DNA of 64,000 nt from Acidaminococcus massiliensis (GTDB taxonomy: Bacteria; Bacillota; Negativicutes; Acidaminococcales; Acidaminococcaceae). A program made the translations under genes and the position numbers. Each line of letters opens with the position of its first letter. Positions within the stretch are counted from its first letter, which is position 1. The stretch lies in contig NZ_LT608315.1 of assembly GCF_900095825.1 (NCBI RefSeq), positions 1,538,311-1,602,310 on the forward strand, read 5' to 3'. Of the stretch, positions 18,359-46,969 are shown piece by piece. The notes beneath the pieces were generated by a model. That model was not told where the DNA came from. It did not search any database and saw only the letters and a list, made by a program, of their open reading frames with translations.

Positions 18359-18448
18359 ATGCAGTTGTCATGCCAACGGAATTATTTCTACCAATCTACT
18401 ATACTTAAACCATCAAAGAAATACCAAACAAATTGGGAGGAATGTTCC

Positions 18449-19399
18449 ATGATCACTGTGAAAAATACGCTGGCCGAAGTTGTCCGGGATTATCCCCAGA
18501 CCATCCCCTTTTTCAATGAGCTTCACTTGGATTACTGCTGCGGCGGGGGGATCCCTCTGGAAGAAGCGGTGAAGGATACGGACTTGGATGCGGAAAAAGT
18601 GGTGGCGGACCTGAATGCTTTCATTGCTGCCCACAGCGCCAAAACCGGCAGCCAGCAGGAATCCCTGGACCGTTTCAAGAAGCTTTCCATTCCGGATATG
18701 CTCCAGGATCTGGAAGCCACCCACCATGTGGATGAACGGAAATACATGGCAGAAATCGAAACGGACCTGAACAAGATCCTCTTGGTCCATTTCGTCCACC
18801 ACGGGGAACTGCTCACCCGTCTCCATCATCTCTACGGTACTCTGAAAACTGGACTAGAAGAACATTTTGCCCGGGAAGAACGGATGGTGTTCCCGCTGAT
18901 GCGGACCTATCCCCAGCCCAACCTGGAAGTCCTCACCCTGATCCAGAACCTGGAAAAAGATCATTCTGCCGCCGGGGACATCATCAAGGAAATCGAAGCC
19001 CTGACGGATCATTTCACCGTGCCGGCCGATGCCTGCGCCACCTTCAAACGGACTTATCAGCTGTTGGAAGCATTCGTCAATGATGTGTTCGTCCATATCT
19101 TCAAGGAAAACTCCATCGTTTTCCCGGAATATGCGGAAAAAGCGCCCAACCAGGAAGAACTGGATCATCAGGTGGAAGTGTCTCTGGAACAAGAAGCGGG
19201 CAGCAACAGCAACACCTGCGGCTACTGTGAAAACGAAAATGGAGAAGAAAAGAGCCCGGTGCTCTTTGAATGCGGCAACTGCGGCGCCCTGTACTGCAGC
19301 GACTGCGGAGAGACCGGCTGCCCCAGCTGCGGCGCCTCCTTCAGTCACGCCCATCCTTTGGAATACTCGGGGAGCAGTTGGAATCCGAACCAGGACTAG
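18449..19399 (+). CDS. ric: Iron-sulfur cluster repair di-iron protein with C-terminal zinc-ribbon-like extension
   Basis: This 316-residue protein joins an N-terminal ScdA_N domain (LAEVVRDYPQTIPFFNELHLDYCCGGG, residues 6-32) to a hemerythrin-like four-helix bundle. The bundle contains FVHHGELLTRLHH, EEHFAREERMVFPLM, EKDHSAAGD and HIFKENSIVFPE, which supply the His and Glu ligands of the di-iron site. The YtfE/ScdA/Ric family repairs Fe-S clusters damaged by nitric oxide or peroxide. Beyond the usual end is an extra cysteine-rich tail with CGYC, CGNCGALYCSDCG and CPSCG. ATG 18449 has GGGAGG 8 bases upstream. It is monocistronic between repeat clusters. Confidence 0.92.
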   Translation: MITVKNTLAEVVRDYPQTIPFFNELHLDYCCGGGIPLEEAVKDTDLDAEKVVADLNAFIAAHSAKTGSQQESLDRFKKLSIPDMLQDLEATHHVDERKYMAEIETDLNKILLVHFVHHGELLTRLHHLYGTLKTGLEEHFAREERMVFPLMRTYPQPNLEVLTLIQNLEKDHSAAGDIIKEIEALTDHFTVPADACATFKRTYQLLEAFVNDVFVHIFKENSIVFPEYAEKAPNQEELDHQVEVSLEQEAGSNSNTCGYCENENGEEKSPVLFECGNCGALYCSDCGETGCPSCGASFSHAHPLEYSGSSWNPNQD

Positions 19400-20883: not shown

Positions 20884-20989
20884 GGTTGTCTTTTCCTTTC
20901 TGAGGGCTGTTGCAGCGCCCTTTTGTCTCATTTCCTAATGGTACTACAAATCCAGCAGAAAAAAAATAATAAATGATGTAACAAAACTA

Positions 20990-21018
20990 TTGACAACAAA
21001 ACCAAGATGATGTACTAT
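20990..21018 (+). promoter_or_regulatory. Promoter of the ywnB-like/sirtuin/macrodomain operon
   Basis: TTGACA (20990-20995), 17 bp, TACTAT (21013-21018). Confidence 0.8.
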
Positions 21019-21025
21019 ACATCAT
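21007..21025 (+). promoter_or_regulatory. Operator candidate: palindrome over the -10
   Basis: ATGATGTA-CTA-TACATCAT has perfect 8-bp arms and contains the whole -10 box. The same half-site ATGATGTA recurs at 20973-20980, upstream of the -35. Confidence 0.6.
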
Positions 21026-21032
21026 GTAAGAA

Positions 21033-21049
21033 GTAATAAAAAATATTAC
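21033..21049 (+). promoter_or_regulatory. Rrf2-type operator candidate R1
   Basis: GTAATAAAAAATATTAC (GTAATA-N5-TATTAC, perfect 6-bp arms) starts 15 bp after the -10. Related 17-mers lie before the Rrf2 gene (43071-43087) and the flavin reductase gene (46350-46366). Confidence 0.6.
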
Positions 21050-21104
21050 AATAATAAAACAAACTGGTTGGAAGGGTTACCCCCTTCTGAAAGGAGAAAT
21101 TCAA

Positions 21105-21740
21105 ATGAAAAAGATTGCTGTTGTTGCTGCCAATGGCCGTGTTGCCAAAAAAGTGATTGCCGAAGCCCTGGACCGGGGAGATGAAGTGGTGGCTTTTGGC
21201 CGCCATGCCGAAAATGATACGGCTGCCCAAAACTACATCCGGAAAGACATCCTGGATCTGACCCGGGAAGACCTGGCCGGTTTCGATGCGGTGGTGGACG
21301 CCTTCGGGGCCTGGGCTCCGGAAGCTCTGCCCGGCCATTCCATTACCCTGAAGCATCTCTGCGATGTGCTTTCCGGGACGGAGGTACGTCTGGTGGTGGT
21401 AGGGGGTGCCGGATCCCTGTACCTGGATAAAGAACACAAGACCCAGCTGGTGGACAGCCCGGACTTCCCGGATGCCTTCAAGCCGCTGGCTCTGGCCCAG
21501 GGAAAGGCGCTGGAAGAGCTGCGGGAAAGAACGGATGTCCGTTGGACCTTCATCAGCCCGGCTGCTGATTTCCAGGCGGATGGGGAACGGACCGGGAAAT
21601 ATATCCTGGCAGGGGAAGAACTTACGGTGAACCCCAAAGGCGAATCCATCATCTCCTACGCTGATTACGCCATCGCTCTGGTGGATGAAATCGAAAAAGG
21701 GAACCACATCCAGCAGCGGATCTCCGTGGTGCGGGGGTAA
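21105..21740 (+). CDS. NAD(P)-binding Rossmann protein of the YwnB / NAD(P)H-binding family
   Basis: A 211-residue atypical short-chain dehydrogenase. The nucleotide-binding segment KKIAVVAANGRVAKKVIAEAL is followed by AFGRHAEN, VVDAFGAWAPEA, VVGGAGSLYLDK and WTFISPAADFQADG, the COG2910/YwnB pattern. In Bacillus, ywnB neighbours ywnA, a Rrf2 regulator. Here a YwnA-like Rrf2 gene is 22 kb away but its presumed operator is present before this gene. AAAGGAG precedes ATG. The genes 37 bp downstream are a macrodomain-linked sirtuin and a macrodomain, so an oxidative or NAD-related stress role is inferred. The reaction is unknown. Confidence 0.88.
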   Translation: MKKIAVVAANGRVAKKVIAEALDRGDEVVAFGRHAENDTAAQNYIRKDILDLTREDLAGFDAVVDAFGAWAPEALPGHSITLKHLCDVLSGTEVRLVVVGGAGSLYLDKEHKTQLVDSPDFPDAFKPLALAQGKALEELRERTDVRWTFISPAADFQADGERTGKYILAGEELTVNPKGESIISYADYAIALVDEIEKGNHIQQRISVVRG

Positions 21741-21777
21741 CCCTGCCACGGGAGTTGTCCTTAAAGGAGGGATGGGA

Positions 21778-22692
21778 ATGACGGGAAATATTACGGACGA
21801 AAACATTGCCCTGCTGGAAGAAAAAATCTCCCAGGCGGAAGCCATCCTTGTTGGTGCAGGAGCCGGGCTGTCTACGGCAGCAGGGTTCACCTATTCCGGC
21901 AAACGGTTTCACCAGTGGTTCTTCGATTTTGAACAGGCCTATGGCATCCGGGATATGTATTCCGGCGGTTTCTATCCCTTTCCCAGCCGGGAAATCTACT
22001 GGGCCTGGTGGAGCCGGCAGATTTACTTGAACAGGTATGTGGATGCGCCTCTTCCGGTGTATCCCCAGCTGCTGGACCTGGTCCATGGAAAGGAATACTT
22101 TGTCCTCACTACCAATGTGGACCACCAGTTCCAGCGGGCCGGGTTCGACAAAAAACGCCTGTTCTACACCCAGGGGGATTATGGGCTCTTCCAGAAAGAG
22201 CGGCCCGGACGGAAAAAGGAAACCTGGGACAACGAAGAAATGGTGTACCGGATGCTGGAAGCCCAGGGGTTCGTGAAAGACCGGGACGGCCGGTACCAGG
22301 TGCCATCTGATGGGCATATCCGGAAAGCCATCCCTGCCGCACTGGTGCCCAAGGCACCGGATGACGGTTCTCCCTTGGTGATGAACCTGCGCTGTGACGA
22401 TACTTTTGTGGAAGATGCCGGGTGGCACTGGGCGGCTGGGCAGTATCACCGGTTCCTCCAGAAGTTCCAGGATAAGAAGATCCTGTATCTGGAACTGGGT
22501 GTGGGGATGAATACCCCGGTGATCATCAAATATCCCTTCTGGCAGCGGACCGGGGACAATCCCCAGAGCTTTTATGTGTGCATCAACCGAGGCGCTGTTT
22601 TCTGCCCGGACGAAATCCGTGGCCGGAGCCTGTGCCTGGACGGGGATATTGCGGAGGTACTGGAAAAACTCACGGAAAGGAAGGAGGCATGA
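21778..22692 (+). CDS. Macrodomain-linked sirtuin (SirTM, class M), probable protein ADP-ribosyltransferase
   Basis: A 304-residue SIR2-fold protein. GAGAGLSTAAGF (near 28-39) forms the NAD site and TTNVDHQF the second conserved loop. At the position of the catalytic His of deacetylases it has YTQGDYGLF, Gln in place of His, which is the hallmark of SirTM enzymes that transfer ADP-ribose instead of deacylating. The four zinc cysteines of classical sirtuins are absent. ATG 21778 lies 7 bases after AAAGGAGG; an ATG at 21772 is too close. It is directly followed by its macrodomain partner. Known SirTM enzymes modify a lipoylated GcvH-like carrier; no such gene is in this window. Confidence 0.9.
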   Translation: MTGNITDENIALLEEKISQAEAILVGAGAGLSTAAGFTYSGKRFHQWFFDFEQAYGIRDMYSGGFYPFPSREIYWAWWSRQIYLNRYVDAPLPVYPQLLDLVHGKEYFVLTTNVDHQFQRAGFDKKRLFYTQGDYGLFQKERPGRKKETWDNEEMVYRMLEAQGFVKDRDGRYQVPSDGHIRKAIPAALVPKAPDDGSPLVMNLRCDDTFVEDAGWHWAAGQYHRFLQKFQDKKILYLELGVGMNTPVIIKYPFWQRTGDNPQSFYVCINRGAVFCPDEIRGRSLCLDGDIAEVLEKLTERKEA

Positions 22693-22694
22693 CC

Positions 22695-23480
22695 ATGGAA
22701 CAGGAAGAACGGCGGATTTGGCTGATACGGCAGCTCCAGAAGGAAATGCCGGACTATGCCGGGATCCCTTTGCCGGAAGATCCGGAAAGACAGTGGCAGC
22801 TGTTCCGGGGGCTGTGCAATCTGCGGCCGCCCCGGAAGGCTTCCCGGGAATTCCTGGAAGTCCAGGATGCTTTCCTTCAGGAAATGACCCGGGAAAAAGG
22901 CATCATTGCCTTGGATGATCTGGAACCCTCTCCGGTGGATCCCCGGTTGTTCCTGTGGCAGGGAGATATCACCCGGCTCCAGGCCGATGCCATCGTGAAT
23001 GCCGCCAACAGCCAGCTTTTAGGTTGCTTCCGGCCCAACCACAACTGCATCGACAACCTGATACAGACCATGGCCGGGGTCCAGCTCCGGTATGCCTGCT
23101 GGGAGCTGATGGAGGAACAGGGCTGCCCAGAGCCTACAGGACGGGCCAAGATTACCAAGGGATACAATCTGCCGGCCCGGTATGTGCTCCATACGGTGGG
23201 TCCCATCGTCCAGGGAAAAGTCACAGAACGGGACCGGCAGCTGCTGGCTTCATGCTATCGGTCCTGCCTGGAAATGGCTGATGCCGCAGGGCTCCGCAGC
23301 ATTGCTTTCTGCTGCATTTCTACCGGTGTCTTCGGTTATCCGCCGGAAGCAGCAGCACCGGTGGCGGTGGGGGCTGTCCGGGAGTATCTGAAAAATCACC
23401 CGGCTTCCGCTCTGGAAAAAATCGTCTTTGATGTCTATCAGGATCGGGATAAGATCCTCTATGGAAGGGCACTGGACTGA
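22695..23480 (+). CDS. Macrodomain protein ADP-ribose hydrolase (zinc-macrodomain type)
   Basis: A 261-residue protein with a helical N-terminal region (1-85) and a macrodomain (about 88-255). Motifs are LWQGDITRLQADAIVNAANS, then LGCFRPNHNCIDN, whose Cys-x4-His-x-Cys arrangement fits the zinc-binding macrodomains linked to SirTM, HTVGP and CCISTGVFGYP in the phosphate loop. These enzymes remove ADP-ribose placed by the sirtuin partner. AAGGAGG ends 7 bases before ATG 22695; an alternative ATG at 22689 would overlap the sirtuin stop as ATGA. Writer and eraser are thus co-translated. Confidence 0.92.
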   Translation: MEQEERRIWLIRQLQKEMPDYAGIPLPEDPERQWQLFRGLCNLRPPRKASREFLEVQDAFLQEMTREKGIIALDDLEPSPVDPRLFLWQGDITRLQADAIVNAANSQLLGCFRPNHNCIDNLIQTMAGVQLRYACWELMEEQGCPEPTGRAKITKGYNLPARYVLHTVGPIVQGKVTERDRQLLASCYRSCLEMADAAGLRSIAFCCISTGVFGYPPEAAAPVAVGAVREYLKNHPASALEKIVFDVYQDRDKILYGRALD

Positions 23481-23497: not shown

Positions 23498-23526
23498 TTG
23501 ACACGCTCCTAGGTATCTGGTAGGAT
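23498..23526 (+). promoter_or_regulatory. Promoter of the Sel1/metallo-beta-lactamase gene
   Basis: TTGACA (23498-23503), 17 bp, TAGGAT (23521-23526). Confidence 0.7.
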
Positions 23527-23653
23527 ATATGAGTAAAGAAAATAAGGGCTATGGTTGGAGCCGGCTGGTGAAACAGCAAAATCGACGCAGTGCGGGAGCA
23601 TTGCGTCTTTTTCTTTATCCGCCCAAGCCTTAGAGAAAGAAGGAAGCACGTCC
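23527..23653 (+). promoter_or_regulatory. Structured 5' leader with internal terminator (possible attenuator)
   Basis: Between promoter and ATG lie two adjacent small hairpins, GGCT-N8-AGCC and GCTG-GTGAAA-CAGC. They are followed by a terminator hairpin GACGCAGTGC-GGGA-GCATTGCGTC with TTTTTC (23584-23612). A terminator placed after the promoter and before the start codon is the layout of attenuators and small riboswitches. I cannot match it to a known riboswitch, and a leftover terminator of the macrodomain operon is also possible. Confidence 0.5.
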
Positions 23654-25273
23654 ATGAACTGTCTGCAGAAATCCCTGATCCTGGCCCTGAGTGCTGCCAG
23701 TCCTTTTGTGTTCCAGACTCCGGCAGGGGCCCAATCCTATGCGGCTCCCCATTTCCATCAGGAAGGCCGGTGGCACAGTGTGGCCCTCAAACTGCTCCTG
23801 GATGCGGGCATCCAGGCCTATCAGCAGGGTGACTATACCCAGGCTCTGTCCCTGTTCCGGCAGGCTGCGGCCAGAGGACACGGCAAAGCTCCCCGGTACA
23901 TCGGCCTTTGTTACGAAAAAGGACTGGGGGTGGCCCAGGATCTCCAGGAAGCGGTGGAATGGTATCGGAAAGCCGCTGCTAAGGGGGACATCACCGGGGC
24001 TTATCTATTGGCCCGATGCTATGAAAAAGGAAACGGCGTTCCTCAGGATCTGGCTCTGGCCCACAAGTACTACCGGCAGTCGGCCCAGCGGGGAGACATC
24101 ATCGCAGCCCCGGCCATGACCGCCCTGGGGAGACTGGCGGAACAGGGGGTGGGGGAGCCCAGAGACCCGGCAAAAGCCAAAACCTGGTATGCCAAAGCCG
24201 ATGCTGCTGGGTATGCTCCGGCCCATGAGGCCCTGACCAAGCTCCTGGGCCATGAACCGAAAGTCCATACGCCCCGGGTCCTGACGGAACGGGTGTCTGC
24301 CGGCAGCAGCCGGGATCTGGCGGACGGGGTCACCCGCCTGGACGTGACCCATATCTGGAAGCCAGTCCGGACCATCGACTTTTCCTCCAAACACAATGTG
24401 CTGATCCAGAATCCGGATGGTACCACTGTGCCCATGGATCAGCCCTGGTTCGCTTCCGCCCAAATAGCCCCTGGCACCTGGCAGATCCGCAGCGACGGGG
24501 ACTACTGCTACCTGCTGGAAGGAGACAGCCTGGCGGTGATGATCGACTGCGGCTACGGAGCCGGGAACATCCGCCAGTACGCCCAGACCCTCACTGCCAA
24601 ACCGGTGCAGTACGTGATCAATACCCACTACCATTTCGACCATACGGCCAATGATGCCTACTTCGATGCCGCCTTCATGACTCCCGAAAGCGTGGAGTAC
24701 GCTACCATCCCGTATGCCAGCTTCCAGGGCATCACTTTCCCCCGGGACTATCCGGTGATCACCGTCCAAAACGGATACAAAATGGATCTAGGGAACCGGG
24801 AACTGGATATCCTGACCTTGCCCCATGCCAACCACACCTTGGGGGGGCTGATGGTCCTGGATCCATCCCGGAAGATCCTCTTTACCGGAGATGAGTTCCT
24901 GGGGAATGACAAAATCGATCTGAACATCTCTCTGGAGGATTTTGCTGCCAACATGGAACGGATCGGCGCTGTCCGCAGCCAATTCGACGTCATGTACGGA
25001 GGTCCCGGGAAGAAGGACGCCAGTGTGTTTGATGCCTGTGCAGCTGCCGCCCGGGCAGGTTTGGATCCCGACTTGAAAACAGGACCTTCTTCCAGCACTG
25101 GTTTCAAGCCCCAGCCTGCCGCTCCCGCCCAGGGCACGATGGTCTATAGACGGGGCAGCGTCCGGCCGGGAGACGGCACTTTCAATGCCCCGGAACCCGT
25201 GATCCAGGGTATCCGCCGGTCCTTTACCGTGAACGGATTCCAGGTGAATTTCACGGAACCTGAAAAAAAATAA
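23654..25273 (+). CDS. Exported Sel1-repeat / metallo-beta-lactamase-fold fusion protein
   Basis: A 539-residue protein. A signal peptide (about 1-26, ending AGAQS) is followed by three to four Sel1-like repeats (about 50-185), seen as AAARGHGKAPRYIGLCYEKG and AAAKGDITGAYLLARCYEKG. A metallo-beta-lactamase domain (about 280-470) has the metal motif HYHFDHTAND, a further ligand in HANHTLGG and FTGDEFLGNDK. The usual last His is replaced by a GGPGKKD region. The C-terminal tail ends in TVNGFQVNFTEPEKK. It is probably a periplasmic hydrolase, the repeats giving a protein-binding scaffold. The substrate is unknown. The fusion order is uncommon. Confidence 0.85.
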   Translation: MNCLQKSLILALSAASPFVFQTPAGAQSYAAPHFHQEGRWHSVALKLLLDAGIQAYQQGDYTQALSLFRQAAARGHGKAPRYIGLCYEKGLGVAQDLQEAVEWYRKAAAKGDITGAYLLARCYEKGNGVPQDLALAHKYYRQSAQRGDIIAAPAMTALGRLAEQGVGEPRDPAKAKTWYAKADAAGYAPAHEALTKLLGHEPKVHTPRVLTERVSAGSSRDLADGVTRLDVTHIWKPVRTIDFSSKHNVLIQNPDGTTVPMDQPWFASAQIAPGTWQIRSDGDYCYLLEGDSLAVMIDCGYGAGNIRQYAQTLTAKPVQYVINTHYHFDHTANDAYFDAAFMTPESVEYATIPYASFQGITFPRDYPVITVQNGYKMDLGNRELDILTLPHANHTLGGLMVLDPSRKILFTGDEFLGNDKIDLNISLEDFAANMERIGAVRSQFDVMYGGPGKKDASVFDACAAAARAGLDPDLKTGPSSSTGFKPQPAAPAQGTMVYRRGSVRPGDGTFNAPEPVIQGIRRSFTVNGFQVNFTEPEKK

Positions 25274-43060: not shown

Positions 43061-43070
43061 AAATTAAGAA

Positions 43071-43087
43071 GTAATAAATAAAATTAC
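43071..43087 (+). promoter_or_regulatory. Rrf2-type operator candidate R2 (autoregulatory)
   Basis: GTAATAAATAAAATTAC, an inverted repeat GTAAT-N7-ATTAC, begins 11 bp after the -10 and matches R1 at 15 of 17 positions. Confidence 0.6.
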
Positions 43088-43127
43088 ATCATCCCAGCTG
43101 CTCGGCAGTGGGAAGAAAGGAGCCATT

Positions 43128-46343: not shown

Positions 46344-46349
46344 AGATAT

Positions 46350-46366
46350 GTATCATAAAATATTAC
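46350..46366 (+). promoter_or_regulatory. Rrf2-type operator candidate R3
   Basis: GTATCATAAAATATTAC starts 7 bp after the -10. The right half TATTAC is identical to R1 and the left half is degenerate. Confidence 0.5.
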
Positions 46367-46387
46367 ATTTCAAAGGAGAAAACTGAA

Positions 46388-46969
46388 ATGAAAGTATTGC
46401 TGTTCAATGGCAGCCGGCGGGAAAAAGGCTGCACTTATACGGCCCTGTCCCTGATTGCCAAGGAACTGGAAAAAGCCGGGATCGATACGGAAATCATCTA
46501 CATCGGCCTCAATGCAGTGAACGGGAAACTGGATGCTTTGGTGAAGGAATGTGCCGCTAAGATGAAGGAAGCGGACGGCCTTGTCATCGGGTCTCCGGTG
46601 TACTACGCTTCTCCTACAGGAGAGATCCAGGTGTTCCTGGACCGGTTTGCAGGAGCGGCAGGGGCTGACCTGCGGCACAAACCGGCAGCTGCCGTCGCCT
46701 CCGCCCGGAGAGCCGGCACCAGCGCCACCTTGGATGTGCTGTACAAATACCTGATGTACAACGAAATGCCCGTGGTCACTTCCAACTACTGGAATATGGT
46801 CCATGGGAATACCCCGGAAGAAGTACTCCAGGACAAAGAAGGGGTCCAGATCATGGAAACCCTGGGCAAGAACATGGCCTGGCTGCTGAAATGCCTGGAA
46901 GCCGGCAAAAAAGCAGGGGTGGAAGAACCGGCCAAACCGGTGAAAGTGATGACCAATTTCATCCGCTAA
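46388..46969 (+). CDS. NADPH-dependent FMN reductase / flavodoxin-fold oxidoreductase
   Basis: A 193-residue flavodoxin-like protein: [19 protein letters not shown] forms the FMN phosphate loop. [24 protein letters not shown] is the conserved second flavin segment of iron-sulfur-flavoprotein-like reductases, and [14 protein letters not shown] follows. The Fe-S ligand cysteines of Isf are not present as a cluster; one Cys sits in the loop REKGC. It probably reduces quinones, azo compounds or free flavin. CAAAGGAG precedes ATG. A Rrf2-type palindrome suggests redox control. Confidence 0.9.

Follow-up and report, generated by a model that had tools for sequence, protein, structure and literature searches.

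What might a class M sirtuin and its macrodomain partner be doing in a bacterium in which no lipoylation gene was detected? The question is raised by a locus of Acidaminococcus massiliensis, within a stretch of 64,000 nucleotides (contig NZ_LT608315.1, positions 1,538,311 to 1,602,310; hereafter the window), where three close-set genes on the forward strand (21105-23480) form a single operon. They encode a YwnB-like NAD(P)H-binding protein, a sirtuin of the SirTM type and a zinc macrodomain (Zn-Macro). Our analysis leads us to think it probable, with moderate confidence, that the operon is a lipoate-independent, reversible ADP-ribosylation pair co-expressed with a quinone reductase, as part of an electrophile regulon of the SifR/YwnA type. 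The lack of a detected lipoylation gene suggests another use for the SirTM/Zn-Macro pair in this host, and the operon context suggests a purpose for a pair that is little understood.

The preliminary description of the locus had noted a sirtuin with Gln in place of the catalytic His and without zinc cysteines, followed by a macrodomain, and all of this is borne out in the sequence. The sirtuin contains FYTQGDYGLFQK, with Gln132 at the catalytic-His place of other sirtuins, and matches the Streptococcus pyogenes enzyme (SpySirTM, 5A3A) at E = 3e-51. Mutating Asn118, Gln137 or Arg192 of SpySirTM dramatically decreased transfer (PMC4518038); these residues align to N113, Q132 and R205 of the window sirtuin, which are kept in 93, 94 and 93, respectively, of 94 aligned sirtuins (that of the window included). 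The Cys pairs of SpySirTM, QCSQHC and CPEC, align to QKERPG and KAPDDG, and the zinc cysteines are gone. Among the 94 sirtuins, 70 have no or one Cys at the four zinc places, 23 have four or more and one has two. Relative to the short form, the window sirtuin also carries an insert of about 17 residues, which is found in all 70 Cys-poor sirtuins and in 11 of the 23 Cys-rich ones. The AlphaFold2 model of the sirtuin, made from 47 window and locus sequences and the sole fold predicted, has a predicted local distance difference test score (pLDDT) of 92.6; its first Foldseek match is 5A3A (E = 1.6e-27, template modelling scores 0.84/0.90) and its second a fungal fusion protein (8RSN), with canonical sirtuins far behind. 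The gene is linked genetically to a macrodomain gene, as in class M sirtuins, and its product is probably a protein ADP-ribosyltransferase.

Sirtuins of this kind also occur in other arrangements. In a genome of the same genus (G407), two SirTM-like genes lie in tandem next to one for an Rrf2 protein (L210:9223-11026), with no Zn-Macro match in 19 kb. One of the two proteins keeps the catalytic Gln; its partner, like another protein of that genome (L212:9840-10706), has Glu at that position and a degenerate glycine motif, and the two look like pseudo-enzymes. Extra SirTM-like paralogues with 29-31% identity to the window sirtuin (L032, L033 and L034, in G232, G326 and G283) keep the Asn, Gln and Arg and have no Zn-Macro within their short flanks.

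The macrodomain scores 348.3 bits against NCBIfam PRK04143 (protein-ADP-ribose hydrolase; cut-off 272) and matches 5KIV at E = 1.9e-75 and 8RSI at E = 3.5e-70. Its catalytic loop holds the Cys/His/Cys zinc motif GCFRPNHNCIDN, which aligns to GCFIPMHNCIDN in 8RSI and GCMQANHDCIDN in 5KIV, and it is probably an ADP-ribosyl hydrolase. The Arg pair of SauMacro (Arg175/176, PMC11490716) aligns to Gln-Gly here, a comparison that involves an inferred numbering offset of six residues and is too thin to weigh. The most likely start of the gene is the ATG at 22695, judged by eye from its spacing to a Shine-Dalgarno-like AGGAGG; an alternative in-frame ATG at 22689 overlaps the stop codon of the sirtuin gene. 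Family, residues and predicted fold thus support the earlier proposal of a SirTM-type transferase paired with a Zn-Macro hydrolase.

In anti-phage defence, other bacterial proteins with a sirtuin fold act by depleting NAD+, and the sirtuin could by analogy be an NAD+-consuming defence or toxin-like NADase with the macrodomain as its antidote. We regard this as very improbable: the protein has the sequence, residues and predicted fold of a SirTM, and the annotated recurrent neighbours of such sirtuins are mostly redox enzymes and regulators. Defence was also set aside as a candidate on the ground that none of five window proteins matches any PADLOC defence model.

Lipoylated GcvH-L is the one SirTM substrate known so far (PMC11490716), and a lipoyl-dependent system of the Staphylococcus and Streptococcus kind would call for GcvH-L and LplA2 genes located elsewhere in the genome. 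Their absence from the window had been pointed out, with the suggestion that the rest of the genome be searched for them, and the absence holds genome-wide. The genome (2.67 Mb in four contigs, completeness 99.99%) has no match to the GCV_H profile, which matched 13 of 14 control genomes, 10 of them over the cut-off, and none to LplA-B_cat, which also matched 13 of 14, with 12 over the cut-off. Its single BPL_LplA_LipB match is BirA-like by sequence, with an N-terminal helix-turn-helix. Its three Biotin_lipoyl matches are two biotin carriers (EAMKM), one of which reads as the glutaconyl-CoA-decarboxylase type, and one protein that reads as an HlyD-type membrane-fusion protein; no E2-type lipoyl domain was matched. 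In searches that did not extend to lipoyl synthase, no lipoylated protein is predicted in the host genome, and the host appears to make none. Among 110 loci (L005-L114), no open reading frame resembled any of 12 GcvH or two LplA queries, canonical sequences that could miss a divergent GcvH-L. Moreover, Ariza 2024 (PMC11490716) reports that the Zn-Macros of lone pairs fail to remove the modification from GcvH-L, and describes their other targets as unknown. On the GCV_H and LplA-B_cat results, we rejected the idea that GcvH-L and LplA2 are encoded elsewhere in the genome, and a lipoyl-dependent system is scarcely credible here. Some genomes with sirtuins of this kind do have lipoyl genes: among 28 SirTM genomes (20 of the phylum sample described below and eight behind YwnB-bearing named loci), GCV_H is above cut-off in 12 and LplA in 10.

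What, then, might the pair respond to? The first gene of the operon belongs to Pfam NAD_binding_10, and the best solved relative of its product is pneumococcal YwnB (SpYwnB, 4R01; E = 3.3e-73 over residues 3-209 of 211), an active quinone reductase that is controlled by SifR in pneumococcus (PMC9218516). The window protein is probably a quinone reductase as well. SifR is an Rrf2-family quinone sensor with the operator TGTAA-N9-TTACA, and has the motif HxxPNPxC in common with YwnA; its regulon includes YhdA, an FMN-dependent reductase (PMC9218516). An Rrf2 profile search of the host genome gave four matches, three of them above the cut-off, and one of these three is encoded in the window. Of the three, it is the best match for every one of 36 Rrf2 proteins whose genes are linked to those of SirTM, SirTM-like proteins or YwnB, at up to 69% identity. 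It carries HDRPNPQC, in agreement with the motif, and its Cys100 is conserved throughout the 36 aligned proteins, its own sequence included.

Operator-like sites of the same type are present in the window. In the 64 kb of the window, TGTAA-N9-TTACA occurs four times at up to one mismatch, in all four cases just upstream of one of three units (the operon, the rrf2 gene and an FMN reductase gene; Table 1), and the control spacers 5-8 and 10-13 give 0-3 matches at the same stringency. The two sites of the operon are 55 bp apart, a spacing that is identical before ywnB in L181 and L191, and the form in which a site overlaps the -35 element recurs in L181, L183, L191, L205 and L206. A second pattern, GTAATA-N5-TATTAC, lies before the operon (no mismatch), before rrf2 (one) and at 46350 (two); 0.28 such sites are expected in the window, and one of 100 shuffles reaches three. 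Its 5-7-5 core is also found before ywnB in several relatives and corresponds to the core of the SifR operator as published. The longer dyad ATGTAA-N6-12-TTACAT has no match in the window. The FMN reductase of the third candidate unit is 40% identical to the product of a gene 1.5 kb from SirTM in L050, the only SirTM locus that it matched. The earlier suggestion that the pair is tied to the NAD(P)H redox state can thus be kept in its redox part and sharpened to quinone or electrophile control of the SifR/YwnA type.

Table 1. Coordinates within the window of the operon, its promoter region and the other units of the candidate regulon
Feature	Position	Strand	Basis or remark
ywnB-like NAD(P)H-binding protein, probable quinone reductase, 211 aa	21105..21740	+	Pfam NAD_binding_10; PDB relative 4R01
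Class M sirtuin SirTM, probable protein ADP-ribosyltransferase, 304 aa	21778..22692	+	5A3A; catalytic residues; AlphaFold2 model/Foldseek
Zn-Macro, probable ADP-ribosyl hydrolase, 261 aa	22695..23480	+	PRK04143; 5KIV; 8RSI
Sigma-70-type promoter TTGACA-17-TACTAT	20990..21018	+	10/12 consensus positions
Operator-like site TGTAACAAAACTATTGACA	20977..20995	.	TGTAA-N9-TTACA with 1 mismatch; right half overlaps -35 TTGACA
Perfect dyad ATGATGTA-CTA-TACATCAT over the -10	21007..21025	.	No other place in the genome at <=2 mismatches
Second operator-like site AGTAATAAAAAATATTACA	21032..21050	.	1 mismatch; just downstream of the -10
Operator-like site AGTAATAAATAAAATTACA	43070..43088	.	1 mismatch; upstream of rrf2; nearly identical to the site at 21032
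SifR/YwnA-type Rrf2 repressor, candidate operon regulator, 143 aa	43128..43559	+	Pfam Rrf2; 1YLF; YwnA 1XD7
Operator-like site TGTATCATAAAATATTACA	46349..46367	.	1 mismatch; precedes the FMN reductase gene by 20 bases
NADPH-dependent FMN reductase, 193 aa, third candidate regulon unit	46388..46969	+	Pfam FMN_red, 103.8 bits

The promoter of the operon is no more than a consensus match, of which two were found in the region and 1.4 are expected. The perfect dyad over its -10 element was set aside as the common site of the regulon; it is unique in the genome and unseen before ywnB of the relatives examined. Downstream of the operon, at 23498-23617, a promoter-like TTGACA-17-TAGGAT and then a hairpin with a T run (23584-23607) stand ahead of a Sel1/metallo-beta-lactamase gene, and this element is a candidate terminator or attenuator of the operon. 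The gene itself (23555-25273) has Sel1 repeats and a metallo-beta-lactamase domain fused in a single open reading frame. On the other side, an M20 gene diverges from the operon, and beyond it lies a gene for a di-iron RIC-type protein (ScdA/YtfE-like; 18359-19399) with an extra Cys-rich C-terminal part.

The association of such operators with SirTM extends to other loci. We anchored 108 loci, namely 28 from whole genomes and 80 named loci from a scan of genome contigs, the latter being the best 80 of more than 582, so that the sample leans to close relatives of the window sirtuin. Operator and neighbour counts refer to the 97 of these with at least 39% identity, which represent 96 distinct sirtuins (L008 and L058 encode the same protein); many contigs are short, and 46 of the 97 loci reach at least 4 kb on both sides. 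Within 4.5 kb of the 97 sirtuins (0.68 Mb), exact TGTAA-N9-TTACA occurs 41 times, at 27 loci; with each of the spacers 5-8 and 10-13 there are 0-3 sites, and three exact ones lie in the far flanks (0.59 Mb). Most of the exact sites (35 of 41) are within about 250 bases upstream of called starts, and the genes concerned encode Rrf2 (18), YwnB (7), SirTM (5), Zn-Macro (4) and a PNPOx-type protein (1). When up to one mismatch is allowed, there are 98 near sites (17-26 with other spacers) and 41 far sites (18-34 with other spacers), and a near site is present at 25 of the 29 loci with an Rrf2 gene.

A number of observations weigh against the regulon reading of the operon. All four sites of the window have one mismatch, and the Rrf2 gene and the operon are 22 kb apart. 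In a genome-wide pattern search, both places without a mismatch are the source of the pattern itself, and at up to three mismatches a reversed control pattern is more frequent than the pattern (55+48=103 versus 27+23=50), so that only the strongest places are meaningful. Among the 97 loci, Rrf2 is encoded within 5 kb at 29, and no site is present at 51 even when one mismatch is allowed; where Rrf2 is lacking, 21 of 68 loci have a near site, a modest excess over a background of 15-20 in 97. The link between operator and SirTM is, therefore, not shown to be general. The glycine loop of the window YwnB is altered (AANGRVA, as against AANGQAG in the active SpYwnB), and its activity is not assured. 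Some ywnB genes adjoin HxlR regulators instead, with a different dyad. Finally, in the family (59 genomes, some of them 60-90% complete), SirTM and YwnB are each found in seven genomes and together only in that of the window, with six genomes having SirTM alone and six YwnB alone, which is no association beyond chance. The seven SirTM genomes were retained from 12 with matches, the other five having 28-31% identity over about 120 residues.

Some of these data could also be read as a case of mere proximity, in which SirTM and Zn-Macro are a horizontally acquired passenger behind a SifR-controlled ywnB, sharing its control without functional meaning. The distribution of SirTM is indeed patchy (seven of the 59 family genomes), and SirTM proteins are only 57-61% identical within the genus. 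In addition, a genus mate without a SirTM match (G413) has a ywnB leader that resembles, by eye, that of the window, and the SirTM/Zn-Macro pair thus probably joined a pre-existing ywnB unit. The operator enrichment, however, is seen again at many SirTM loci of varied gene order, whether YwnB is present or not, which is more than a single chance insertion would give. We consider passenger status unlikely.

Another possibility, raised by the preliminary description, is that YwnB itself is the target, and that SirTM modifies it and Zn-Macro removes the mark to tune quinone reduction. YwnB comes first in the common operon, and it lies near SirTM or Zn-Macro in other lineages, in different gene orders. 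Close YwnB relatives (at least 57% identity) are also over-represented among SirTM genomes in a phylum sample of 398, occurring in seven of 20 as against four of the 378 others (P = 7.6e-8, a value that ignores shared ancestry). The 20 come from 26 genomes with sirtuin matches, of which six (G057, G059, G061, G091, G259 and G396) were left out, having 25-30% identity and no Zn-Macro in their short flanks; among the 20, the G246 entry is fragmentary and lies at the end of a contig, and no Zn-Macro adjoins the sirtuin in G140 or G326. Yet 12 of the same 20 genomes have no YwnB match at all, and the two genes share one of 59 genomes in the family. YwnB is found within 6 kb of 11 of the 97 SirTM loci, on the strand of the sirtuin in all 11, and at none of the other 86; among the 46 loci with at least 4 kb on both sides, four have it and 42 do not. 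Away from SirTM, too, YwnB has Rrf2 or HxlR as a neighbour, so that the linkage is explained by shared regulation. Taken together, the phylum and family data favour a shared regulatory niche and disfavour YwnB as a required target. As a dedicated substrate YwnB was rejected as the leading idea because co-occurrence is lacking, and we find its role as the target quite improbable.

Further features of these ywnB genes can be noted. In L121, L123 and L124, the ywnB promoters linked to HxlR have in common a motif around AAAGTGC-TACTTTAC that might serve as an HxlR operator. A missing glycine loop in YwnB was considered as a mark of SirTM-linked copies and discarded, since linked and unlinked copies alike show the loss and the glycines persist in several linked ones. 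In G140, a protein of 279 residues without a Pfam match is encoded between YwnB and SirTM (L017:2276-3115), on a 19-kb contig with no Zn-Macro match.

Nor do the other neighbours offer an evident substrate. Of the 108 anchors, 80 have Zn-Macro within 6 kb, 29 Rrf2, 23 a PNPOx-type protein and 11 YwnB, followed by an ABC ATPase, HxlR and FMN reductase (nine each) and LysR (eight). No recurrent neighbour except Zn-Macro is general, and hence no local gene looks like an obligatory substrate, a negative limited by the 4-kb flanks being present on both sides at only 46 of the 97 loci. The PNPOx-type cluster near 23 loci is represented by L106:5638-6252, which encodes a PNPOx-like flavin domain followed by two 4Fe-4S motifs.

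We postulate that the Rrf2 repressor encoded in the window would hold the promoter of the operon off through the two operators, one over the -35 element and one past the -10. Once Cys100 had reacted with quinones or similar electrophiles, the repressor would come off, and YwnB, which would reduce quinones with NAD(P)H, would then be made together with SirTM and Zn-Macro. With NAD+ as the donor, SirTM may ADP-ribosylate a cellular protein on a side chain that is probably acidic, and Zn-Macro may remove the mark, giving a reversible switch. Such a switch would have to work without a lipoylated carrier, because the host appears to have none. YwnB would be a co-regulated detoxifying enzyme, and the modified protein is probably encoded elsewhere. 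It is tempting to extend the argument to other hosts: quite possibly, though here we are more tentative than about the operon itself, lone pairs over much of their range are the protein-modifying arm of quinone/electrophile regulons of the SifR/YwnA type, protecting or retuning a redox enzyme. Perhaps, too, the lipoate-independent, electrophile-induced version is older or broader than the lipoyl-GcvH-L version of Staphylococcus and Streptococcus. A specific regulator, operator and inducer class make both the stimulus and the ADP-ribose target of the pair directly testable.

How does this operon compare with known systems? The preliminary description had presented it as a variant without lipoyl partners. 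Their absence stands, and the contrast to known pairs was overstated, since bacterial SirTM/Zn-Macro pairs have been reported as independent operons as well (Rack 2015, PMC4518038). Lone operons without GcvH-L and LplA2 are published, and Veillonellaceae and Clostridiaceae are among the SirTM hosts (PMC4518038, PMC11490716). The operon of the window shares with these a class M sirtuin gene adjoining a zinc macrodomain gene and the lack of GcvH-L and LplA2; it differs in that ywnB leads, that the sirtuin is without zinc cysteines and has an insert, that no lipoylation genes were found in the host, and in the proposed control of the SifR/YwnA type. With the extended SirTM operon of Staphylococcus and Streptococcus (GcvH-L, LplA2, OYE and LLM) it has in common the writer and eraser families and an oxidoreductase partner, whereas it contains none of those four genes, and its genome has no GcvH or lipoate-ligase match. 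In a literature that left subscription papers mostly outside, we found no published tie of SirTM to a regulator of the SifR or YwnA type. The nearest link that we found is a Staphylococcus aureus clpX mutant in which HypR and QsrR levels change and the sirTM operon is less induced, with no regulatory link stated in the accessible text (PMC12710355). The closest regulatory parallels are the SifR regulon of Streptococcus pneumoniae and ywnAB of Bacillus subtilis (PMC9218516), with which the window shares an HxxPNPxC Rrf2 protein, candidate operators of the TGTAA-N9-TTACA type, ywnB and an FMN reductase. It departs from them in that its Rrf2 protein has an extra Cys37, present in it alone among the 36 aligned, and in that its ywnB unit continues into SirTM and Zn-Macro.

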